This document shows positions 1,884 through 19,556 of a stretch of 20,119 nucleotides of DNA, piece by piece. The translations under genes were made by a program, and so were the position numbers. The notes beneath the pieces were generated by a model. The model did no database searches. It worked only from the letters and a program-made list of their open reading frames with translations, and had not been told where the DNA came from. The DNA is from a virus, in IMG/VR virus record IMGVR_UViG_3300027770_000317, positions 1 to 20,119 of that record. One strand, 5' to 3'. Positions within the stretch are counted from its first letter, which is position 1. Every line of letters begins with the position of its first letter.

Positions 1884-1959
1884 TGCGTCGTAGCTCAACT
1901 GGCAGAGCGCGTGACTGTTAATCATGAGGTTGTAGGTTCGAACCCTGCCGACGCAGCCA
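1884..1959 (+). tRNA. tRNA-Asn (anticodon GTT) with encoded CCA
   Basis: A complete cloverleaf can be drawn: 7-bp acceptor stem TGCGTCG/CGACGCA without mismatch, D stem GCTC/GAGC, anticodon stem CGTGA/TCATG with one G-U pair, anticodon loop CTGTTAA giving GTT, and T stem GTAGG/CCTGC with one T-G pair and loop TTCGAAC. The discriminator G at 1956 fits bacterial asparagine tRNAs, and CCA follows at 1957-1959, so the 3' end is genomically encoded. Phage tRNAs usually supplement host decoding, here of AAC and AAU codons, and tRNA genes are also frequent integration sites. No attachment-site duplication is visible in the window. Confidence 0.95.
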
Positions 1960-1960
1960 G

Positions 1961-1991
1961 AAAAAAACCCGGCACTGCCTGAGCAATGCCG
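1961..1991 (-). terminator. Terminator of the minus-strand protease operon
   Basis: On the minus strand, the stem CGGCATTGC/GCAGTGCCG (9 bp with one mismatch) is followed by GG and a run of seven T. It lies 47 bases beyond the stop of the papain-like protease gene and directly against the 3' end of the tRNA, so the convergent units are separated here. Confidence 0.75.
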
Positions 1992-2038
1992 AGCCTTTCC
2001 GAAAACAAACATCGACCGATCAAGGTCACTGTTTGCTT

Positions 2039-2851
2039 TTACAGTAGATCACCTGCAACAACATATCCAGCTTCTTCGCCGATGTTCGCGCATCCGAATT
2101 TAATCAGAGCGTGGCCTTTATTTCCCCATTCCTGACCCCAAGAATTGCCCATGATCCATTGATCTTCAAACGTCCAGCCGACGACAACAACCATGTGATT
2201 TGTCGCTTCATTGTCGCATCCTTTACCTTTGATTTCTCCGGTTGCTCCAGACCAGCCGGTATTGCCAACAGCCACGGTCACAAAGGCAGAACCGTAATTA
2301 AGGATGGCTGATTTGATTTGTTCGACGGTCGGCTGTTTTTCTTCAGAACCAAGCAATTTCATTTTTACAGCCTTGGCAGCTTTAGGCAGTTTTTTACACC
2401 TAAGACTTTTTGCGGCATACGGCCAGGATTCTTCGGAGGCGATTCCTTTTAACAGAAATTTTGCCGATTCCATAAAACCGCCTTCGCACTTGTAGGCTGA
2501 AGTTTCGCAGGAAACCATTTCTTGCTCTGACAAATCAAGTACGTTGCCGCTAGATTTTGCGAGTGAAATTTCTAGGGCGCGAGTCGCAGCAAATGCCCAA
2601 CATGAGCCACAATTGCCTTGGTCCCTAATTTCCGGCATCGCTTGCACTTCACGCGAATCAAACGAAAGAGGAAGATCATCGGCGTTAACGGCTTTGTTGT
2701 CGTAGGGGATTGCGTTGATGTCGAACCGACGGCCAAGATATCCAGTTCCCTTGATACCAGAAACGGTATTGATTTCTGGCCGACCGATGATTTTATAACC
2801 GTATGCTGGAAACGAAACCATAAAAAGCGATGCGATAAAAAATTTAAGCAT
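2039..2851 (-). CDS. Secreted papain-like cysteine protease (peptidase family C1A)
   Basis: A 270-residue protein with a Sec signal peptide (MLKFFIASLFMVSFPAYG, cleavage near residue 18), a short pro-segment of about 45 residues, and a full C1A catalytic domain. The oxyanion-hole Gln78 and nucleophile Cys84 lie in RDQGNCGSCWAF, catalytic His219 in NHMVVVVGW, and Asn236 in NSWGQEWG. LSEQEMVSC and CEGGF, with their disulfide Cys residues, also match the family. All catalytic residues are present, so it should be active after export, cleaving proteins in the periplasm or outside the cell. A C1A protease is unusual in a phage, and the family is otherwise typical of eukaryotes and scattered bacteria. 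The start has AAAGGA nine bases upstream and overlaps the LysR-type gene by 8 bases (ATGCTTAA), so it is translationally coupled. It is the last gene of the operon. Confidence 0.93.
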   Translation of the reverse strand: MLKFFIASLFMVSFPAYGYKIIGRPEINTVSGIKGTGYLGRRFDINAIPYDNKAVNADDLPLSFDSREVQAMPEIRDQGNCGSCWAFAATRALEISLAKSSGNVLDLSEQEMVSCETSAYKCEGGFMESAKFLLKGIASEESWPYAAKSLRCKKLPKAAKAVKMKLLGSEEKQPTVEQIKSAILNYGSAFVTVAVGNTGWSGATGEIKGKGCDNEATNHMVVVVGWTFEDQWIMGNSWGQEWGNKGHALIKFGCANIGEEAGYVVAGDLL

Positions 2852-3119
2852 TGACGATATCCTTTATTTCTTCGAGCGTGTTTAAAGATTGAACAGACTT
2901 CGCGCAAGCGGCAATTCCAAACGCGGTCAGTTTGACATAACGACCGTCACGTTCAATGATTTTTTTACCTAATGCGCCTTCTATTTTTTTTATGCGTTGT
3001 GAAATAGAAGGTTGCGACAGATGAACCGCTAAGGCGATGTTGCCAATTTTTGTTCCACGATCATTATATAAAATCCTCAATATATATAAATCGACAATAT
3101 CCATTAGGGCAAAATTCAT
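2844..3119 (-). CDS. LysR-type DNA-binding protein, HTH domain only
   Basis: A 91-residue protein with the LysR-family winged HTH over most of its length: DIVDLYILRILYNDRGTKI, then ALAVHLSQPSISQRIKKIEG, then LGKKIIERDGRYVKLTAFG. Full LysR regulators are ~300 residues. The inducer-binding domain is absent, and the stop falls where the linker helix would end. The start chosen is ATG in a TAATG overlap with the upstream stop, with GGAGG 11 bases before it. A longer frame starting at TTG (3137) would place its start codon on that ribosome binding site and is rejected. It lies between a secreted protein and the protease gene in one operon and so probably regulates this operon, perhaps through the inverted repeat at 4018-4050, which is an inference. 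Confidence 0.88.
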   Translation of the reverse strand: MNFALMDIVDLYILRILYNDRGTKIGNIALAVHLSQPSISQRIKKIEGALGKKIIERDGRYVKLTAFGIAACAKSVQSLNTLEEIKDIVNA

Positions 3120-3814
3120 TATTGTGCGTCCCTCCAAATGTTTCTGGCGATCGGCGGCGCAATCTTTTTATCGACGACCCTTTCGACGACTTCGCAAATT
3201 GGCGTGCAAGCAAAAGCAATAGGACCAATTCCATAAGTCCCGACGGCGCAAACGGTATAGGCCGACCAATAGCTGACTACACCGGCCAGGCCGTGATGTT
3301 CCCATTTAAATTTAGTCGATGGATGACCCGCAAAATGATCGAGGTATTCGTCTTCAGGATATGACGCTGGATCGAAGACGACCGGAACGGCGTGATTAAA
3401 AATGTACATATCGTGGGCATGAAAAAACTTGCACCAATCTTGGCCGATTTTTTCCTCAACCGTATTGTGAACGTTTTCTAGCCATAACCAAAGAGGATCA
3501 TAGTCGCCGATTTCTTTTGTGCAATATGAGACAGAACAGAAAACGGCTGTTTTATAATGTGATTTATATTCGATTAATATTTTTTCCGCGTAGTCATGGT
3601 GTTTGAATTTCTTAAGCACCTTAGCAGTATTGCCAATCATGGCTTCAATTGCAGAATCAGTCTTTCGAGCAAAAGCGTCACGGTCGCTGAAAGCAGGCGA
3701 CATTTTTTTGACAAATGATTCAGCCATATCGTAATCGGATTCGGTCAGCCGACCGTTATCTTGGGCGAATGAAGTGGTCGAAAAAAAAAGCAGAACAAAG
3801 ACAAGTCGCAGCAT
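3119..3814 (-). CDS. Secreted protein of unknown function, partner of the protease operon
   Basis: A 231-residue protein with a clear Sec signal peptide (MLRLVFVLLFFSTTSFA, then QD). The mature part is rich in aromatic residues, His and Cys: FCSVSYC, QDWCKFFHAHDMY, KWEHHGL. A more hydrophobic C-terminal segment (GLAGVVSYWSAYTVCAVGTY) contains CAVGTYGIGPIAFACTPIC, which could be a membrane-associated or disulfide-linked region. The paired Cys residues suit an oxidising periplasmic location. The ribosome binding site is GAAAGGT. The gene runs into the LysR-type gene through TAATG. I recognise no family. Its context points to a protein that acts with, inhibits or is matured by the protease. Confidence 0.75.
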   Translation of the reverse strand: MLRLVFVLLFFSTTSFAQDNGRLTESDYDMAESFVKKMSPAFSDRDAFARKTDSAIEAMIGNTAKVLKKFKHHDYAEKILIEYKSHYKTAVFCSVSYCTKEIGDYDPLWLWLENVHNTVEEKIGQDWCKFFHAHDMYIFNHAVPVVFDPASYPEDEYLDHFAGHPSTKFKWEHHGLAGVVSYWSAYTVCAVGTYGIGPIAFACTPICEVVERVVDKKIAPPIARNIWRDAQ

Positions 3815-3862
3815 TAGTGGACCTTTCTACGGTTTTTTATCAATTCATAAAATCTTTGCTTG

Positions 3863-4003
3863 TTACTTTTTTTTTGCGGATTCTATTTCTATGACGCATT
3901 TTTTTTCGTCGTCGCCAGACAGGTCTTTTTTGACATCGAGAAATAATTTCACGGATTCATAAATTACTCTGGCAATCGAAAGGGACCAAACCAACCAAGA
4001 CAT
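3863..4003 (-). CDS. Small 46-residue protein at the head of the minus-strand operon
   Basis: The short frame begins with ATG preceded by GGAGGTGTAGTT, one of the best Shine-Dalgarno sequences in the window, and ends in TAA. The product has a hydrophobic, Trp-containing N-terminal helix (MSWLVWSLSIARVIYESVKL) and a charged C-terminus (DVKKDLSGDDEKKC, ending AKKK). It looks like a small membrane-associated peptide. It is 48 bases upstream of the secreted-protein gene in the same direction, and starts 15 bases from the inverted repeat at 4018-4050, so it is probably the first gene of the operon. The reading is supported by the ribosome binding site and position only. Function is unknown. Confidence 0.6.
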   Translation of the reverse strand: MSWLVWSLSIARVIYESVKLFLDVKKDLSGDDEKKCVIEIESAKKK

Positions 4004-4017
4004 AACTACACCTCCAG

Positions 4018-4050
4018 CGTGATAAAGTTATCTGTGTTCATTTTATCACG
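4018..4050. promoter_or_regulatory. Inverted repeat between divergent transcription units, possible operator
   Basis: Perfect 9-bp arms CGTGATAAA and TTTATCACG are separated by 15 bases. They occupy most of the 61-base gap between the minus-strand operon (start 4003) and the plus-strand early operon (start 4065). The arm spacing and dyad fit a binding site for a dimeric regulator, and the LysR-type protein encoded in the minus-strand operon is the obvious candidate. I cannot place convincing -35 and -10 elements. A leader-RNA hairpin is the alternative reading. Confidence 0.5.
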
Positions 4051-4064
4051 GTTTAGGAGGCTCC

Positions 4065-4346
4065 ATGATTACCGTAACCGGAACGATTACCCGTGTCATC
4101 GGGCCGACTTCTTTTGCCGTATCTGCCTATAACGAGGCAGGCACCTTTTTTTATTTTGTTTCGCTTTATAATGTTGTTGCGCGTGATCCCAACGCCTGCG
4201 AAAATTGGTGTTCGGAAAATCTAATCGGTCAGGATGTGATTTGTTTTGTTCACGAAAAAAACAGATCGGGAAGATTAACTGCTGAAGTCGAATTTGAAGG
4301 CGGCGATGTCGGCGAATTACTCGTAGCGCAGGGGATGGCAGATTGA
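4065..4346 (+). CDS. SNase-like OB-fold protein, apparently without the nuclease site
   Basis: A 93-residue protein behind an excellent ribosome binding site (TTAGGAGGCTCC). It begins with a beta-rich stretch (ITVTGTITRVIGPTSFAV) and ends with GRLTAEVEFEGGDVGELLVAQGMAD. This resembles the end of the staphylococcal-nuclease domain, where a (G)R..AEV strand is followed by ..LV..G.A. The usual GDT and R.....PE catalytic motifs of SNase are not evident, and the domain is shorter than the ~130 residues of active members. The name is therefore structural: a possible nucleic-acid-binding OB-fold protein. It is coupled by TTGA to the M15-like peptidase gene. It is first in the rightward operon and next to the putative operator. 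Confidence 0.6.
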   Translation: MITVTGTITRVIGPTSFAVSAYNEAGTFFYFVSLYNVVARDPNACENWCSENLIGQDVICFVHEKNRSGRLTAEVEFEGGDVGELLVAQGMAD

Positions 4347-4720
4347 TTTCGCGGGAAGAAATTTTAAAAGGCCGCGACATTTTGTTTCCGATTGACGGAA
4401 CCATGGAACAAAATTTAGGCGGTCTTTTGCGTTCGATAAATTTGCTCCGCGACATCTGGGGATTTCCCATGATTGTAACGAGCGGATACCGACCGAGACA
4501 ACTTAATTGCGCGGTCGATGGCAGACCGAAATCCAGGCACCTAACCTGTGAAGCCTGCGACATTGCAGACCCCGACGGATCGTTAGGCCGCTGGTCCGTC
4601 AACCACGTTGAGATTTTAGAAGCCTGTGGTCTTTGGATCGAGAATCCTGAATACACAAAGGGATGGGTCCATTATCAAATTCAACCGCCAAAATCCGGCA
4701 ATCGAATTTTTACGCCGTGA
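4343..4720 (+). CDS. M15-like peptidase, probable endolysin (cell-wall peptidase)
   Basis: A 125-residue single-domain protein. The zinc-peptidase pattern of family M15 is visible: VTSGYRP (residues 45-51), S64-x-H66 followed seven residues later by D73 in SRHLTCEACDIAD, and a late H110 in GWVHYQ. H66, D73 and H110 fit the three metal ligands. Such proteins cleave peptide bonds in the peptidoglycan stem (D-Ala-D-Ala carboxypeptidase or L-Ala-D-Glu endopeptidase). In phages they serve as endolysins and, at this length, need a holin for export. There is no signal peptide. The start is TTG inside TTGA, overlapping the previous stop, with GCAGGGGATGG upstream. An ATG-initiated alternative would cut into the domain. 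Cys68 and Cys71 near the metal site are unusual. Confidence 0.75.
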   Translation: MISREEILKGRDILFPIDGTMEQNLGGLLRSINLLRDIWGFPMIVTSGYRPRQLNCAVDGRPKSRHLTCEACDIADPDGSLGRWSVNHVEILEACGLWIENPEYTKGWVHYQIQPPKSGNRIFTP

Positions 4721-5037
4721 AGTCCCACCGATCGAAACTTTACCTTGATTTTATCAGGAATCAGCCTTGCATCGTTTCCGGCTCGGATTACGGCGTAGTG
4801 GCTCACCATGTTCGAATTTTAGGCAACGGCGGCACCGGACTAAAGCCTAGTGATTTTCTAACCGTTCCCCTGACACACGAACACCACATGGCTTTACATT
4901 CAGGCGGCGAAAGGTCGTTTTATAAAAAGCATAATATTGATATTAACAATTCAATAAAATGTTTTTTACTATCATTTTTAGAATCCTTCCCAACAAATTC
5001 CGACGTTATTGAATCCCTCGACTACATTTCTTTGTAG
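4717..5037 (+). CDS. HNH-like putative endonuclease
   Basis: A 106-residue protein with the arrangement of small phage HNH-type proteins: YLDFIRNQPCIVSGSD, then VVAHHVRILGNGGTGLKPSD, then TVPLTHEHHMALHSGGERSF. HH, the GTGLKPSD loop and THEHH...LH are diagnostic of this group, in which the histidines bind the catalytic metal. The first knuckle, usually two cysteines, has only one here (PCIVSGS), so the structural zinc site may be degenerate. The start is GTG overlapping the preceding TGA as GTGA. An upstream in-frame ATG at 4663 lies inside the peptidase gene and adds non-conserved sequence. Position before the recombination genes suggests DNA repair, recombination or a packaging-related cut. 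Confidence 0.75.
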   Translation: MKSHRSKLYLDFIRNQPCIVSGSDYGVVAHHVRILGNGGTGLKPSDFLTVPLTHEHHMALHSGGERSFYKKHNIDINNSIKCFLLSFLESFPTNSDVIESLDYISL

Positions 5038-5139
5038 ATTTTTTGTTTTTATCTTCTTTATTCTTGTTTATTTTTACTGTTCAGTCTGGTATACCCATCC
5101 CATGAGTTAGCCACAAGAAAACATGGAGCATAGGAAAAC

Positions 5140-5472
5140 ATGAAAACCGAATACTTGGTCAGACTGAAAAAAGAAATGAAGTTAAAGGATGGCGGCTTGT
5201 TGCCGGTAGGAACGTCTGGAGTGATTACATTCCCCAATCCAGCGGAAAGCAAAAACGGAACACTCTGCTTTTTTAATTCCGGCGACGAAACCCACAAAAT
5301 CGAAACTCGAAAACTAGATATTTATTTTGGTTATCGAATCCCCTCCGAAACGACAATTAGAAAATGGATGTCGGATTGCCTATGCAAAACGGTGACAGGG
5401 AAAACCGTTGAACCTGACGGTTACGGCGATGACAATAGCCCGTCATGGTTACTGGCTCTGGAGGTCATTTAA
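5140..5472 (+). CDS. Unknown early protein
   Basis: A 110-residue soluble protein, ATG start with ATAGGAAA upstream, following a 102-base AT-rich gap that may hold a promoter. The first half looks like beta strands (EYLVRLKKEMKLKDGGLLPV, then GVITFPNP, then LCFFNSGDE, then KIETRKLDIYFGY), reminiscent of a small SH3/KOW-like barrel. The second half is TIRKWMSDCLCKTVTGKTVE and a Gly/Asp-rich segment. It is followed two bases later by the RecE-like nuclease gene, so it belongs to the recombination operon. I do not recognise a family. Confidence 0.7.
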   Translation: MKTEYLVRLKKEMKLKDGGLLPVGTSGVITFPNPAESKNGTLCFFNSGDETHKIETRKLDIYFGYRIPSETTIRKWMSDCLCKTVTGKTVEPDGYGDDNSPSWLLALEVI

Positions 5473-5474
5473 TA

Positions 5475-6347
5475 ATGATTAAATGTAACACTGTTTCCGC
5501 GATCGAGAAATTACTGGAAACTAGCAATCATATTGGACCGATTGATTGCCCGGAAGAAGTCTATAGGGCAAGTCCAGGCGTCAGTCAGAGCGATTTAAAA
5601 AAGTTTGAGATGTCACCGGCCAAAGCCGTTTGGGAAATGGAACACCCGTCGAAACCTAGCGAAGCGATGGAACTAGGATCGGCAATCCATTGCGCTTTAC
5701 TTGAGCCGGATTTGTTCGATAAAAAATATATTCTTAAACCAAAATTTGATCGGCGAACAAAAATAGGTAAACAAGATGCGATTGATTGGGAGGCGGCGAA
5801 CTTTGGGAAATCGGGACTCGAACAAAACGAAATGGACGTTGTTGACCGGCTGGCCGCTCGTTTTTTTGACGACGATTATTTTCGAAGGTTTTTTAAGGGC
5901 GGCAAAAAAGAATCGTCGTTTTGGTCAAAGGATTCCGAAACAGGAATAATCAAGCGGTGCAGGCTCGATAACTATAACGACGAAATGTGTTTTCTTGTCG
6001 ATTTAAAAACTACTATGTGCGCCTATCCCCCGGTTTTTGAGCGCGATATCGGCAAATACAAATATCACATCCAAGCGGCGTACTATACCGACATCGTGCG
6101 CGAGGTCACTGGTCACGGCTGGCCTTTTGTAATCGTGGCTGTTGAAAAAACAAAAGACTGCGACATATCCGTTCACCTCATTTCCGACGCGGCAATTTGT
6201 CACGGGCGAGAAATGTATAAACGCTATCTTAGGCAGTACGCGCACGTTAAAAAAACAAACGTCATAGAGGGATACGAGAAAAATATAAATGTTTGGGATT
6301 TGCCAAAATGGGCCGACTTTAACTTTGAAAACAATTTTGATTTTTGA
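5475..6347 (+). CDS. RecE/exodeoxyribonuclease VIII-like PD-(D/E)XK nuclease
   Basis: A 290-residue protein, a RecB-type nuclease close to the C-terminal domain of RecE (exonuclease VIII). Motifs in order: SQSDLKKFEMSPAKAVWE near residues 37-54, GSAIHCALLEP with the conserved His (about residue 72), CRLDNYND, then FLVDLKTT with catalytic D176 and K178, and QAAYY (Q200 and Y204). It degrades the 5' strand of double-stranded ends and feeds the annealing protein encoded next. The start chosen is ATG at 5475, with GGAGG 10 bases upstream and directly after the previous stop. A longer frame from 5445 has no such site. The 3' end overlaps the ERF gene by TTGA. Confidence 0.9.
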   Translation: MIKCNTVSAIEKLLETSNHIGPIDCPEEVYRASPGVSQSDLKKFEMSPAKAVWEMEHPSKPSEAMELGSAIHCALLEPDLFDKKYILKPKFDRRTKIGKQDAIDWEAANFGKSGLEQNEMDVVDRLAARFFDDDYFRRFFKGGKKESSFWSKDSETGIIKRCRLDNYNDEMCFLVDLKTTMCAYPPVFERDIGKYKYHIQAAYYTDIVREVTGHGWPFVIVAVEKTKDCDISVHLISDAAICHGREMYKRYLRQYAHVKKTNVIEGYEKNINVWDLPKWADFNFENNFDF

Positions 6348-7012
6348 AAATGGAACAAATGAAAATATATAGCGCAATCAATAACATCATGGGCGAAATC
6401 GGCGGCATCGCAAAGAACAAAAGAAATCAAGCACAAGGCTATTCGTTCCGGGGGATAGATGACGTTTATCTTGCAGTTCAGCCATTGCTCGCAAAATATA
6501 AAGTTTTTACGGTTCCGCGAGTAGTAGATAGCAAAATGGAATTAAAAGAGACGAACCAAGGCAAGGCTATAATCTATCGGATTCTAGTAATCGAATATGA
6601 TTTTATTTCCGCTGAAGACGGTAGCAGGATCACGGCAACGGTTATCGGCGAGGGAATGGACAGCGGGGACAAGGCATCAAACAAGGCGATGTCAGTGGCT
6701 CACAAATACGCAATTCTCCAGGTCTTTGCCGTTCCCACGGAAGAACCTAAAGACCCAGAAAATGATTCCCATGAAATTGTCGTGAAGAAAAAAACCGCTG
6801 AAAAAGAATTGCCAAACAAAAAAGTGACGAAAGAAAAGTTACAGCAAGTGGTCGCGGCGTTTGATTTAGTAAACGTGCCGGTTCCTGACCTAGAATCTTA
6901 TGTCGAAAAATCATTGGGCGATTTTGATACCGACGACCTCGAAAAACTAAGGCCAATGTTGGCCGAACTAAAAACAAAAAAGCAAAAACAAAAAATTGAG
7001 GCGGCGGTCTAA
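6344..7012 (+). CDS. erf: ERF-family single-strand annealing protein
   Basis: A 222-residue protein with ERF-superfamily signatures: YSFRGIDDVYLAVQPLLAKY (33-52), the central beta strands AIIYRILVIEYDFI, and GEGMDSGDKASNKAMSVAHK followed by YAILQVF (102-128). ERF proteins bind single-stranded DNA and anneal complementary strands, working with a 5'-3' exonuclease, here the RecE-like protein one gene upstream. The C-terminal third is Lys-rich and low in complexity (residues ~145-167 and the last 15) and probably disordered. The most upstream start is TTG in a TTGA overlap. An in-frame ATG two codons later (6350) and another at 6359 are equally possible, since no start has a clear ribosome binding site. 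Confidence 0.9.
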   Translation: MKMEQMKIYSAINNIMGEIGGIAKNKRNQAQGYSFRGIDDVYLAVQPLLAKYKVFTVPRVVDSKMELKETNQGKAIIYRILVIEYDFISAEDGSRITATVIGEGMDSGDKASNKAMSVAHKYAILQVFAVPTEEPKDPENDSHEIVVKKKTAEKELPNKKVTKEKLQQVVAAFDLVNVPVPDLESYVEKSLGDFDTDDLEKLRPMLAELKTKKQKQKIEAAV

Positions 7013-9056: not shown

Positions 9057-9797
9057 ATGGATAAAGCAACAAAAAGAGTTGTTTGTTGGTTTTCAGCTGG
9101 TGTTACCAGTGCTGTTGCGGTCAAACTTGCAAAAGAACAAGGTCCGGTAACAATTGCCTATTGTGACACCGGCGCAGAACACGTTGATAATTTACGTTTT
9201 ATTGCCGATTGCGAAAAATGGTTTAATCAAAAAATAATTATACTTCGTTCAAAAAAGTACGCCAGCGTTTGGGAGGTTTTTGAAAAAACCAGATATTTGA
9301 GCGGCGTTAATGGCGCAAGATGCACTACCGAAATGAAGAAACTAGTGCGACGAAACTTCGAAGACTTAAATAACGATTTACAGGTTTTCGGATTTGACGC
9401 TACCGAGAAAAAACGCGCAGATAAATTTTTAGCAAATAATCCAGAAGTAACCGCATGGTTTCCTTTAATAGAGCAAAACTTAACAAAACAAGACTGCATA
9501 GACAAAATATTAAGCGCAGGCATAAATATTCCTGAAATGTATAGACTTGGTTACAAGAATAATAATTGTATTGGATGCGTTAAAGGCCAGGCTGGTTACT
9601 GGAATAAAATTAGACTTGATTTCCCGGAAGTGTTTGACCGTATGGCGAAACAAGAGCGCGAACTAAATGCCGCAATTTGTAAAAGTTATGCAAAAGATGG
9701 GAAAAGAAAAAAGGTTTTTTTGGATGAATTGCCGTTAGATATGGGCCGCTATGAATCCGAAATTGAAATTAAATGTGGCTTAATTTGTGGGGAATAA
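9057..9797 (+). CDS. PAPS-reductase-like PP-loop protein (adenine nucleotide alpha-hydrolase family)
   Basis: A 246-residue protein. The N-terminal PP-loop is present in a modified form (WFSAGVTSAVA, residues 11-21, in place of the usual SGGxxS), followed by TIAYCDTGAEH (family pattern: D/N-T-G), GARCTTEMKK with Cys89, and GFDATEKKRAD. A second half holds NNNCIGCVKGQAGYWNK (Cys171, Cys174) and a C-terminal CGLIC (Cys240, Cys244), which could form a metal or Fe-S site. Phage members are often named phosphoadenosine phosphosulfate reductase, but real PAPS reduction is doubtful. Nucleotide or tRNA thiolation, or DNA-modification chemistry as in DndC relatives, is equally possible. No clear Shine-Dalgarno precedes ATG. 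The codons are richer in A and T than those of the neighbours, and the gene sits between repeats inside a structured segment, all suggesting later insertion. Confidence 0.82.
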   Translation: MDKATKRVVCWFSAGVTSAVAVKLAKEQGPVTIAYCDTGAEHVDNLRFIADCEKWFNQKIIILRSKKYASVWEVFEKTRYLSGVNGARCTTEMKKLVRRNFEDLNNDLQVFGFDATEKKRADKFLANNPEVTAWFPLIEQNLTKQDCIDKILSAGINIPEMYRLGYKNNNCIGCVKGQAGYWNKIRLDFPEVFDRMAKQERELNAAICKSYAKDGKRKKVFLDELPLDMGRYESEIEIKCGLICGE

Positions 9798-16906: not shown

Positions 16907-17179
16907 TTGAATACTTTTGATCCAAAAAACTGTCGATATTCGAGCCAGTGGCGAACGGATAATGCAACGAAGAACGATTGGTTTAAAATGATTGATACCA
17001 TTATGTATATGTGGGATCGAGTTGATGACAAAACGTTGCGCGGTCATGTGGCCCCCGATAGATATTTTGAATTAGAAAACGCGGTAAAAAAAATGGGCGG
17101 CGCAATTATAGAAAAAAAATTAGACCTAATCGCCGGTAAAGAATGGGTAAAAATTAGAGAGCCGAAAGGATTAAAATGA
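16907..17179 (+). CDS. Tagged small head-region protein A (N-terminal NTFDPKNCRYSS tag)
   Basis: A 90-residue protein starting at TTG with GTGGAG nine bases upstream, one base after the MuF stop. Residues 1-20 (MNTFDPKNCRYSSQWRTDNA) are the shared tag also found at 18807 and 19098. The body (MIDTIMYMWDRVDDKTLRGH, then YFELENAVKKMGGAIIEKKL) is helical and unrelated to the other tagged proteins. The tag is conserved in the DNA as well: 22 bases at 16923-16944 differ by one base from the copies at 18323 and 19117. The location between the minor head protein and the prohead-protease gene suggests a protein packed in or attached to the head. Function unknown. Confidence 0.75.
   Translation: MNTFDPKNCRYSSQWRTDNATKNDWFKMIDTIMYMWDRVDDKTLRGHVAPDRYFELENAVKKMGGAIIEKKLDLIAGKEWVKIREPKGLK
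16923..16944 (+). repeat. Tag-coding repeat, copy in protein A
   Basis: 22 bases coding for the core K-N-C-R-Y-S-S of the shared tag. It differs from the copies at 18323-18344 and 19117-19138 by one base (CGATAT instead of CGGTAT). Confidence 0.8.
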
Positions 17180-17679
17180 ACTGGCATCCAACTTTCAAAT
17201 GTTTTGTCGATTCTGGGTTAGCTCAAAACGCATTAGAAATACAGCCTCATCCTAAAGAGGTTGCGGATTTGGACGACGAACAAATTAAAAAAGTTAAAGA
17301 TCGTTTTAAAGAACAGCCTAAAAAATATGACTTAGATAAAATGGCAAAAAAAATTGCCGACCTAGAGCAAAATCTCAAAGCCGTAAAGTTAAAGGGAACG
17401 CCGGAACAATATCGCAAATTACAAGACGAACTAGAAAAATTTAGTCGTCAATATCAGTCTGTTTACAAAAACGAGCCAAAGATATCACAAAATTGGACCC
17501 AGTGGGCTTTAGACAAACAATTCAAAACTCGATTTAAAGAATTGAATTATTGCAAAATTCCGCCAAATCAATGGTCTTTTGTTTCGACGGAAACCAATCA
17601 ACCAATTGGTATGAGGTATGCGTCAAAAGTTGAATTGCTTGCCGACCTTGATCGTTTCGCTCGCGAATATGGGTTATAA
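17176..17679 (+). CDS. Unknown head-region protein with coiled coil
   Basis: A 167-residue Lys-rich protein starting with ATG in an ATGA overlap with the preceding gene. Residues ~28-98 are strongly helical and heptad-like (DDEQIKKVKDRFKEQPKKYD, then LDKMAKKIADLEQNLKAVKL, then YRKLQDELEKFSRQYQSVY). A C-terminal domain follows (YCKIPPNQWSFVSTETNQPI, then RYASKVELLADLDRFAREYG). It carries no N-terminal tag, unlike its neighbours. The sequence is not recognised. Its position suits a capsid-internal or scaffold-like protein. Confidence 0.7.
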   Translation: MNWHPTFKCFVDSGLAQNALEIQPHPKEVADLDDEQIKKVKDRFKEQPKKYDLDKMAKKIADLEQNLKAVKLKGTPEQYRKLQDELEKFSRQYQSVYKNEPKISQNWTQWALDKQFKTRFKELNYCKIPPNQWSFVSTETNQPIGMRYASKVELLADLDRFAREYGL

Positions 17680-17680
17680 A

Positions 17681-18640
17681 ATGCCGACCTATTTAGACTT
17701 AACAAAAAATCGTTATAGCTCCAGGCACGTTGTCGAGAACGCAAAAGACCCGACATCAACTAACGAAGGATTCAAAGGATTTGATGACCCTTGGAAGGTG
17801 ATGTCACCGGAAGACCGAAAGGAAGCCAATCGTTTGTTTAAGCTGACCATGAAAGCCTTTGCTTGTTCACCGAAACAAAAAGAGCTTTCCGACCAATTAC
17901 AAAAGATCCTCTCCAAATACGGTATCGGCGCTGAAATAAAACGTAACAGCGAATACCGGATGGATAATGATTCCGCATGGACTTTGTCGGCTATACGGTC
18001 GATTACAACAAAAGAACAGTTTGCCGAGGCTGTAAAGTGGTTTGTAAAAACCATGAAAGACGGGAATAGATTGACAGAAAGCCAGCACGAAGCAATCAAA
18101 GGAACGCTTGAAGACAAGGCCGAAAAACTTGGTTTGTCGGTGCGCGATTTAAACAGAAAGAACAATTCAAAAATCCCTAAAACTCAGGCCGAGTATGCTC
18201 TCGAAGTAAAAAAACTTGAGGACGAAGGATTAACTACGTCTGATGCTCAGGGCGAAGTTGATGCTAGGCTTATGTCGGCAGGGTACGACGTTAATACATT
18301 AAAAAAAATCGACAAAAAATTAGCAAAAAACTGTCGGTATTCGAGTCAGTTTGCCCATCGATTTAAAGTTAACGAATCCATAAAAGAGTCTCGCGAGAGG
18401 GGCTTTAACGATGCAATGCTGGCTGTTTCAAACGTTCTGCAATCATGCAAATGGAAAATACAAAGCAAAAAAATAAAGCCTCCGTATGCTACTTTGATTT
18501 GTGTTCCAGAAACCGAACACAGCGAACCTATGCGGTTTGTTAGTAACAAAATAAATAGTATATTTGTTGACGCGAAGGTAAAATCTTTGTCTCAAACCTT
18601 CAAAGCAGAAATCGAAATAATTATAAGTCCACTAGGATAA
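17681..18640 (+). CDS. Multi-tag head-region protein B (three tag-like elements)
   Basis: A 319-residue protein. ATG at 17681 directly follows the previous stop. A longer frame from 17618 would add 21 residues lying inside the previous gene. The N-terminus carries a variant tag (K9-N-R-Y-S-S14, then VVENA). A partial tag, KRNSEYRMDND, occurs at residues 87-97, and a full core, AKNCRYSSQF, at 215-224. The last is coded by the same 22 bases as in the gene at 19098. The segments between the tags differ: an acidic helical part, a helical repeat-like part (LTESQHEAIKGTLEDKAEKL), and a C-terminal alpha/beta domain (RGFNDAMLAVSNVLQSCKWK, ending FKAEIEIIISPLG). It reads as several tagged proteins fused in one chain. 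Function unknown. Confidence 0.75.
   Translation: MPTYLDLTKNRYSSRHVVENAKDPTSTNEGFKGFDDPWKVMSPEDRKEANRLFKLTMKAFACSPKQKELSDQLQKILSKYGIGAEIKRNSEYRMDNDSAWTLSAIRSITTKEQFAEAVKWFVKTMKDGNRLTESQHEAIKGTLEDKAEKLGLSVRDLNRKNNSKIPKTQAEYALEVKKLEDEGLTTSDAQGEVDARLMSAGYDVNTLKKIDKKLAKNCRYSSQFAHRFKVNESIKESRERGFNDAMLAVSNVLQSCKWKIQSKKIKPPYATLICVPETEHSEPMRFVSNKINSIFVDAKVKSLSQTFKAEIEIIISPLG
18323..18344 (+). repeat. Tag-coding repeat inside protein B
   Basis: 22 bases identical to 19117-19138, here in the middle of a coding region and in the same reading frame (K-N-C-R-Y-S-S). An internal copy in frame argues for fusion or duplication of a tagged gene. Confidence 0.85.
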
Positions 18641-18652
18641 GAAGAATAAAAA

Positions 18653-18823
18653 ATGAATCGCGTCATGGAACAAAATATTGCCGAAAACTATGTGTTAAAA
18701 TTGGTCGTCGCAGCTTGCGAAGCTAAGGCCATTGACGAGATGTATTTAAGTCAAATAGTTGACGCTTTGATCGAGGCCGGTTGCGAAATAAATTTAGGGG
18801 ACGGATATGAACAACACCTTTGA
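18653..18823 (+). CDS. Small 56-residue protein between tagged genes
   Basis: A short frame with ATG preceded by AGGATAAGAAG, 12 bases after the stop of protein B, ending TGA 17 bases inside the next gene. The product (MNRVMEQNIAENYVLKLVVA, then EAKAIDEMYLSQIVDALIEA, then GCEINLGDGYEQHL) is a compact helical protein with no tag. It fills an otherwise empty 166-base gap, and the GGGGACGG of the next gene lies within it. Coding is likely, function unknown. Confidence 0.6.
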   Translation: MNRVMEQNIAENYVLKLVVAACEAKAIDEMYLSQIVDALIEAGCEINLGDGYEQHL

Positions 18824-19091
18824 CCCAAAAACTTGCAGGTTTTCGAGTCAATACCGGATGGATAATGGCAACGAAGAAATCAGACAAAAACTTGTTTCTA
18901 TTGTTACGCAATATGACCAGAAACAAGAAAAAAAAAGCAAAAGTTATAATCCTTACGCTTTGGCTCAAATGTTAGAATCCGCCAATGCCATCGCAAGTTT
19001 GATTCAAAAAGGAACGCCGGTCGATCAAGCTATCGACGAATATTTTTTGGATAGACTAGCCGATTTTGTAAAATCAAAAATGAGGAAATAA
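18807..19091 (+). CDS. Tagged small head-region protein C
   Basis: A 94-residue protein with AGGGGACGG before ATG. Residues 1-20 (MNNTFDPKTCRFSSQYRMDN) are the shared tag. The body is helical and Lys/Gln-rich (NEEIRQKLVSIVTQYDQKQE, then YNPYALAQMLESANAIASLI, then PVDQAIDEYFLDRLADFVKS). It has no similarity that I can see to the bodies of proteins A or D. It lies six bases before the next tagged gene, so they are co-expressed. Function unknown. Confidence 0.75.
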   Translation: MNNTFDPKTCRFSSQYRMDNGNEEIRQKLVSIVTQYDQKQEKKSKSYNPYALAQMLESANAIASLIQKGTPVDQAIDEYFLDRLADFVKSKMRK

Positions 19092-19097
19092 AAAACA

Positions 19098-19556
19098 ATG
19101 AACAACACTTTCGACCCAAAAAACTGTCGGTATTCGAGCGAGTATCGGATGGATAATGCTAACAACGAAACCGCTAATCCAAATAAATTAAAAGAACGAA
19201 TGTCAGTTCGTCTGAAATCTAACCCGTCTCAAACCGGAAAAATCAGATATTTTACCGATGACGGCGGAATAACAAAAGCGGTTGTCCTATGGGATAACGA
19301 CCCTACTTTCAAATTGGATGATTTAGCTTCTCTTGATTCTCTGATTGCTAAAAACGGAAAAACTAAATCAGCGGAAAACTCGCGCAAAACAAAAACAGAA
19401 ATTCAAAAAATGAGCATTGCGGAAATTTTGCAGGCCATAAGAACAAAATCATTGACCTATGCTGAAGTTGATGACGCCTTAGAAGAAATAAAAGAATTTT
19501 CTAAACTAGATCGTATTGGGGACGCATTAGCAAAAGACGACTTAAAAGGAAAATAA
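19098..19556 (+). CDS. Tagged small head-region protein D
   Basis: A 152-residue protein. ATG is preceded by GAGGAAATAAAAAACA. Residues 1-20 (MNNTFDPKNCRYSSEYRMDN) are the shared tag. Two parts follow. A small beta-rich segment (KIRYFTDDGGITKAVVLWDN) is flanked by SNPSQTG and PTFKLDDLASL and resembles an SH3-like fold. A helical C-terminus follows (MSIAEILQAIRTKSLTYAEV, then DDALEEIKEFSKLDRIG). It ends one base before the DUF2213 gene. Function unknown. Confidence 0.75.
   Translation: MNNTFDPKNCRYSSEYRMDNANNETANPNKLKERMSVRLKSNPSQTGKIRYFTDDGGITKAVVLWDNDPTFKLDDLASLDSLIAKNGKTKSAENSRKTKTEIQKMSIAEILQAIRTKSLTYAEVDDALEEIKEFSKLDRIGDALAKDDLKGK
19117..19138 (+). repeat. Tag-coding repeat, copy in protein D
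   Basis: 22 bases identical to 18323-18344, coding the tag core K-N-C-R-Y-S-S. The protein C copy near 18826-18848 is more diverged in DNA (ACTTGCAGGTTTTCGAG) but keeps the protein pattern. Confidence 0.85.

Follow-up and report, generated by a model that had tools for sequence, protein, structure and literature searches.

Bacteriophage lysis is usually pictured as the work of a holin, a peptidoglycan hydrolase and a spanin, and proteases of the papain family (C1A) typically carry an inhibitory propeptide of the I29 type, which is not obligatory. A C1A protease in a phage is already known, as the phage peptidase family PHROG 16701 and in the Thermoanaerobacterium phage THSA-485A. In baculoviruses, the gene of the C1A protease V-CATH lies antiparallel to that of a polysaccharide hydrolase, CHIA, and the CHIA partner retains and chaperones the V-CATH pro-enzyme; once set free as the cell dies, the protease breaks down the structure of the host (PMC9965964).

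Here we analysed the 20,119-nt IMG/VR virus record IMGVR_UViG_3300027770_000317 (positions 1 to 20,119, the whole of it referred to as the window), a virus of bacteria with terminase, portal and head genes and an early gene block. Its minus strand carries, from 4003 to 2039, four ORFs in the order 46-aa peptide, 231-aa protein, LysR-type helix-turn-helix (HTH) protein and C1A protease (Table 1). The initial annotation of this DNA, made from the sequence alone, had described four coupled genes. All four ORFs proved to be real and the last three are probably translationally coupled because of their overlaps (TAATG is common to the stop of the 231 gene and the start of the HTH gene, and 8 nt are shared by the end of the HTH gene and the beginning of the C1A gene); the 46-aa gene, however, is separated from the 231 gene by a gap of 48 nt, close but without overlap. 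Homologues of every gene of the operon occur in other phages, arranged in the same way or similarly, which goes beyond chance; the nearest relative is the contig L096. Nonsynonymous divergence between the window and L096 is well below synonymous divergence: pN and pS are 0.32 and 0.75 for the C1A gene and 0.37 and 0.78 for the 231 gene, where the synonymous differences are saturated, so that the pN/pS ratio is only a bound.

Table 1. Coordinates of the operon and of neighbouring features in the window.
Feature	Position	Strand	Basis or remark
Two late genes: 97 aa (TM + coiled-coil) and 86 aa	1310..1817	+	conserved on that side in L096
tRNA-Asn (GTT), convergent with the operon	1884..1959	+	same place in L096
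Intrinsic terminator closing the operon (double hairpin followed by T7)	1963..2036 (bounds approximate)	-	folding energy
270-aa C1A papain-like cysteine protease, predicted to be exported	2039..2851	-	Peptidase_C1 E 1.4e-42
91-aa stand-alone LysR-type HTH protein	2844..3119	-	HTH_1 E 1.1e-9, no effector domain
231-aa protein, predicted to be exported, six Cys	3119..3814	-	ORF and homologues
46-aa membrane peptide	3863..4003	-	ORF and homologues upstream of a 231-family gene
Inverted repeat CGTGATAAA-N15-TTTATCACG	4011..4057	.	between the divergent genes; may be an operator
Divergent 93-aa gene, weakly SNase-like	4065..4346	+	below Pfam cut-off
M15-type endolysin, second of the divergent genes	4343..4720	+	Peptidase_M15_3 E 9.5e-12; phrog_894 endolysin E 7e-15

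The sibling contigs L003 and L004 stop short of the operon. Elsewhere, adjacent genes following the MuF-like head gene (window 16907-19556, L004 13790-15110) share, almost unchanged, the leader MNNTFDPKNCRYSSxYRMDN, which was seen on at least three genes in the window and four in L004; it is unusual for otherwise dissimilar proteins encoded next to head genes to have such an N-terminal tag in common. In L003 the gene of the terminase small subunit is preceded by two genes (4734-6514), one of them oxygenase-like by eye, and the window carries three small minus-strand genes in their place. The early block of the window also includes a PAPS-reductase-like gene (9057-9797) with weak NCBIfam matches.

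The protease domain was recognised by the Pfam model PF00112 above its cut-off and also matched PHROG 16701. The oxyanion Gln78 and the catalytic Cys84, His219 and Asn236 are invariant across 14 phage homologues, and all six papain disulphide cysteines are present (C81-C122, C115-C152 and C212-C254, paired by papain numbering from the comparison with cathepsin K), which fits an oxidising compartment. The structural model had a pTM of 0.82, and Foldseek matched it to cathepsin K with an E-value of 1e-17. The start is signal-peptide-like and is followed by a pro-region of about 42 aa before the mature domain, mostly of low confidence in the model (pLDDT below 50 at residues 9-26 and 37-46) and probably disordered; no Pfam match to Inhibitor_I29 was found in the protein. 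In these features the protease is intact, and the initial annotation was borne out in its claims of a complete Gln-Cys-His-Asn set and of a phage operon combining such a protease with a second secreted protein, both of which have signal-peptide-like starts. The outcome that it had itself named as damaging, stray decayed host fragments or a dead protease, does not agree with this sequence evidence.

A search with a two-row C1A profile gave 38 viral and 80 genome loci; among the viral ones, L114, L116, L118, L121, L122, L125, L129 and L132/L133 were left out as giant-virus- or cellular-looking. The match in L002 from the single-sequence scan (56% over 25 residues) was dismissed as chance, that contig having no C1A. 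The best viral relative was the protease of L096, 52% identical over its full length, and the best sampled cellular protein was 39% identical. In a tree of 145 C1A domains the window grouped with L096 and L097 with a support of 0.96, and L098, L106 and L110 joined them at 0.94 with no cellular member inside, which places the protease of the window in a phage-only clade, the deeper nodes of the tree being weak. THSA-485A (two copies) was the only annotated phage with a C1A relative among 50,697 phage records, so that the protease is a rare cargo, in keeping with its earlier description as not usual for a phage. The other four matches were in unannotated gut contigs, and the two that we read (H1 and H5, that is L011 and L012) were set aside, since their rRNA-methyltransferase-like and other housekeeping genes make them resemble pieces of bacterial genomes rather than phages.

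An endolysin gene neighbours the C1A gene in several phage lineages, about four. An Amidase_2 endolysin lies directly beside the C1A gene in L099, L103, L107 and L108, which form one lineage, and also in L110, whereas in L097 one 73-aa gene separates the two; in the isolated phage THSA-485A a GH25 lysozyme directly precedes the protease, and in the window the M15 endolysin is located two genes from the operon. Protease and endolysin share a strand in L099, L103, L107, L108, L110 and THSA-485A; the operon of the window, in contrast, diverges from the M15 gene and belongs neither to its transcription unit nor to its direction. The repeated position of C1A relatives beside genes that dissolve cell walls suggests that the protease probably helps to break the outer layers of the host at release. 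L214 (6631-8406) has adjacent genes for a C1A protease and a trypsin-like S1 protease, which converge with a gene of the 231 family. We also observed a secreted protein encoded directly after the C1A gene in L099 (6337-7158), L103 (7066-7866), L104 (7115-7693) and L107 (4714-5520). Zinc-site motifs of the form HEIGH...EGEAD/EGQAD are present in those of L099 and L103 and only in degenerate form in that of L104, and a Pfam scan of these three gave nothing significant; the protein may represent a further exported hydrolase, of unknown family, in the lysis regions of phages.

The 231-aa protein starts like a signal peptide (...TTSFA/QDNG, by eye) and matched no Pfam, NCBIfam or PHROG family over the cut-off. 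A single-sequence search found no relative in annotated phages, in plasmids or in the genome scan; the homologue in the same operon of L096 was matched with an E-value of 1e-64, and profile searches added L117, L135, L136, L214, L217, L218 and L219, so that the family is present in nine phage contigs, the window and eight others. The AF2 model is all-helical (pLDDT 79, pTM 0.81) with hydrophobic, Gly-rich C-terminal helices. Foldseek against the PDB returned nothing below an E-value of 0.3, and the best VIA match (Z 5.8, helical membrane proteins) was discarded because it is at the noise level for helical bundles. With no Pfam, PDB or annotated-phage match, the protein founds an undescribed family. 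Across 31 sequences of the family, G103, N140, H160, F161, C189 and C203 are invariant and D104, H105 and D135 nearly so; the conserved Asp, His and Asn residues together with C189 and C203 could be a catalytic or metal site.

The membrane peptide is encoded directly upstream of the 231 gene in eight of the nine phage loci. By eye, the 46-aa peptide has a hydrophobic N-terminus and a charged tail, and its relatives measure 64-73 aa. A C1A gene is next to the 231 gene in four of the nine loci, in the same direction in L096 and in the window (in the latter with the HTH gene between them) and convergent in L117 and L214. A search of a defence-system library gave no match for the protease, the 231 protein or the peptide and, for the LysR-type protein, nothing beyond weak HTH matches; a module composed of a membrane peptide, a 231 protein, a stand-alone HTH and an optional exported protease was likewise not described in the libraries or in a limited literature search.

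For the HTH gene the likeliest start is the ATG at 3119, which follows GGAGG and gives 91 aa, with a longer TTG frame from 3137. No effector domain was found in these 91 aa, nor in relatives of 106-115 aa, so the earlier view of the protein as a truncated LysR HTH held. Its assignment as the private regulator of the protease had to be abandoned. A stand-alone LysR-type HTH gene neighbours the 231 gene in six of the nine phage loci, in the same direction in the window and convergent in L135, L136, L217, L218 and L219, and in these last five no C1A gene is adjacent (in L136, none was found in 40.0 of the 40.6 kb); conversely, the LysR gene is missing from the otherwise equal operon of L096. The HTH gene thus accompanies the 231 gene and not the protease.

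Outside phages, a 231-family gene was found in 26 of 368 Bdellovibrionota genomes (E-values down to 1e-39), with chromosomal-looking surroundings in the regions that we read, and no credible match was obtained in 398 Pseudomonadota genomes. In 14 of the 26 genomes the gene adjoins a subtilase (S8) gene, which is downstream on the same strand in 13 and upstream in one (G293); the S8 class of the 13 was confirmed by Pfam in four and assigned by a home-made profile in the rest. As each Bdellovibrionota genome has 4-16 S8 genes, such adjacency would be expected by chance at about 1% or less per locus. The 13 genomes, however, fall into a single clade in the tree of the 231 family, and the independent events may therefore number as few as two, one old event and that of G293, and 12 of the 26 genes have no adjacent S8 gene. 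In two pairs that were read, the catalytic Asp segment of the subtilase comes directly after the signal peptide; the G293 subtilase has a long pro-region. With this adjacency in 14 of 26 genomes, the family occurs again and again beside exported proteases, and these belong to more than one class. The initial annotation had suggested that the second secreted protein may be an inhibitor, chaperone or substrate: its part as a protease partner gained support from the adjacency to exported proteases of two classes, and inhibitor, chaperone, enzyme and substrate are all candidate roles.

The constancy of the membrane peptide and the 231 protein (8/9 phage loci), set against the optional C1A (4/9), leaves room for the view that the effector is the 231 protein itself. 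It would then be an exported enzyme or a membrane-active protein for which the peptide may serve as a holin-like partner, and the C1A protease would mature it or add damage. The near-invariant D104, H105, D135, N140 and H160 with C189 and C203 resemble an active or metal site, and the Gly-rich hydrophobic helices would suit such a role. No catalytic fold was recognised, however, and the recurrent neighbourhood of exported-protease genes speaks for a role linked to proteases; we hold this explanation to be unlikely.

The operon ends in a terminator with a folding energy of -43.8 kcal/mol for the segment 1955-2042 (z -6.5), a stability that no sequence among 200 shuffles reached, and a promoter scan gave matches at chance level. 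The inverted repeat upstream of the operon is a possible operator but was rejected as a conserved one, being absent in L096 and L135. The divergent 93-aa gene was not accepted as a true SNase, as it is under the cut-off and does not match the SNase of L103; at this position upstream of the 231 gene, L218 and L219 have a clear SNase-like gene, and L096 and the window a homologue or weakly SNase-like one. The tRNA-Asn as a simple attachment site was dropped, since L096 has a divergent tRNA-Asn (52/76 identical) in the same syntenic place; between it and the C1A gene, L096 also has an 87-aa gene (2169-2432), absent from the window and without a Pfam match. Homologues of one or both late genes occur near the 231 gene in L135 and L217-L219 and near the C1A gene in L097, L106 and L110.

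The direction of the operon is the reverse of that of the late genes both in the window and in L096, and with its own terminator in the window it looks more like an independently expressed accessory unit than like a piece of a late lysis operon; this reversed orientation is the chief objection to reading it simply as the latter. It keeps in play a role in superinfection exclusion or surface remodelling, in which exported C1A and 231 proteins, expressed early from a promoter belonging to the operon, would cut or mask surface receptors of the infected cell and so keep out competing phages. The presence of a small DNA-binding protein in the operon agrees with this, as does the position of the 231 unit at the end of an early-type gene run with SSB-like genes in L135, L136 and L217. 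Such a role would leave unexplained both the endolysin adjacency in about four lineages and the link of the 231 family with subtilases, and we consider it improbable.

The initial annotation had also offered lysogenic conversion. Under this reading, expression from a prophage would supply the host with one more secreted protease, to be used in feeding or predation. The accessory-type architecture would suit this, and related secreted C1A proteases are encoded in 71 of the 368 Bdellovibrionota genomes. Those inspected, however, are in ordinary chromosomal surroundings, and the chromosomal 231 and C1A copies that were read have no phage structural genes around them. Tyrosine integrases, the class covered by our search, were found in just two (L097 and L098) of 21 related records and not in the other 19, the window among them, many of them 30-51 kb long although they may be fragments, and no integrase or repressor was seen in the window; this speaks against lysogenic conversion, which we regard as very unlikely. 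The large terminase subunit was 55% identical to that of Nitratiruptor phages and 49% to that of Bdellovibrio phage phi1422, with a strong match in only one of the 368 Bdellovibrionota genomes. The Nitratiruptor phages are nearer than phi1422, and TerL did not decide the host. In favour of a host within Bdellovibrionota are the 231-family genes in 26 of the 368 genomes as against no credible match in Pseudomonadota, the related secreted C1A proteases in 71 of them and the TerL identity to phi1422; we would put the odds only slightly above even.

The best reading of the locus, with a probability of roughly 45%, is that the C1A protein is an envelope protease acting around lysis and the 231 protein its exported helper. 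The core would be the membrane peptide and the 231 protein, to which the phage of the window has coupled the C1A protease and the small LysR-type HTH protein, making up a movable accessory module. Both exported proteins would pass through Sec to the periplasm and form their disulphides there, and the protease would cut envelope or periplasmic proteins left by the muralytic endolysins and so speed escape around lysis. The 231 protein would fold, restrain or target the protease, and the HTH protein may regulate the unit of membrane peptide and 231. The pro-region of about 42 aa without I29 in the phage C1A, and the catalytic Asp directly behind the signal peptide in the two 231-S8 pairs that were read, fit a helper acting in trans. 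Against this reading stand, besides the orientation of the operon, the five of nine phage 231 loci without an adjacent C1A gene, the 12 genomic 231 genes without a neighbouring S8 gene, the single clade to which the 13 genomes belong, the conserved Asp, His and Asn residues, which could make the 231 protein an enzyme in its own right, and the uncertain host. A wider version, which we find rather doubtful, would make the 231 protein a general exported helper of proteases that have little propeptide and come from unrelated classes (papain-type enzymes in phages, subtilisin-type ones in Bdellovibrionota), taken up by phages of these bacteria into a lysis-associated protease module.

The recurrence of an exported papain-type protease next to the endolysins of several phage lineages suggests that envelope proteins, too, are digested by some phages. 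A family without a described fold that adjoins exported proteases of two catalytic classes offers a testable prediction. If the hosts are Bdellovibrionota, the locus bears on how phages leave predatory bacteria, a matter on which, to our knowledge, little is known.

Compared with the C1A proteases of MEROPS (papain/cathepsin L-K, PF00112), the protease of the window has the same fold, the same Gln-Cys-His-Asn set and the same three disulphides, with 38% identity to cathepsin K; it differs in the lack of I29, in its pro-region of about 42 aa, in its bacterial signal peptide and in belonging to a phage-only clade. The 'peptidase C1A papain' of THSA-485A is likewise a phage C1A and directly follows a GH25 endolysin gene, but it is 28% identical, comes from a Firmicute phage, has no signal-peptide-like start that we could see and has no annotated 231-family neighbour. 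As in LysR-type regulators, the winged HTH is N-terminal in the 91-aa protein (HTH_1 E 1.1e-9), which, unlike a full LTTR, has no effector-binding domain and accompanies the 231 gene rather than the protease. For the 231 model, the only clear structural match was an uncharacterised phage protein in BFVD, A0A6J5PGL6 (E 9e-13, 37% identity). The pairing of V-CATH with CHIA belongs to an insect virus, where the partner is a chitinase, and is thus a functional parallel to the exported protease and its putative helper, not a relationship.
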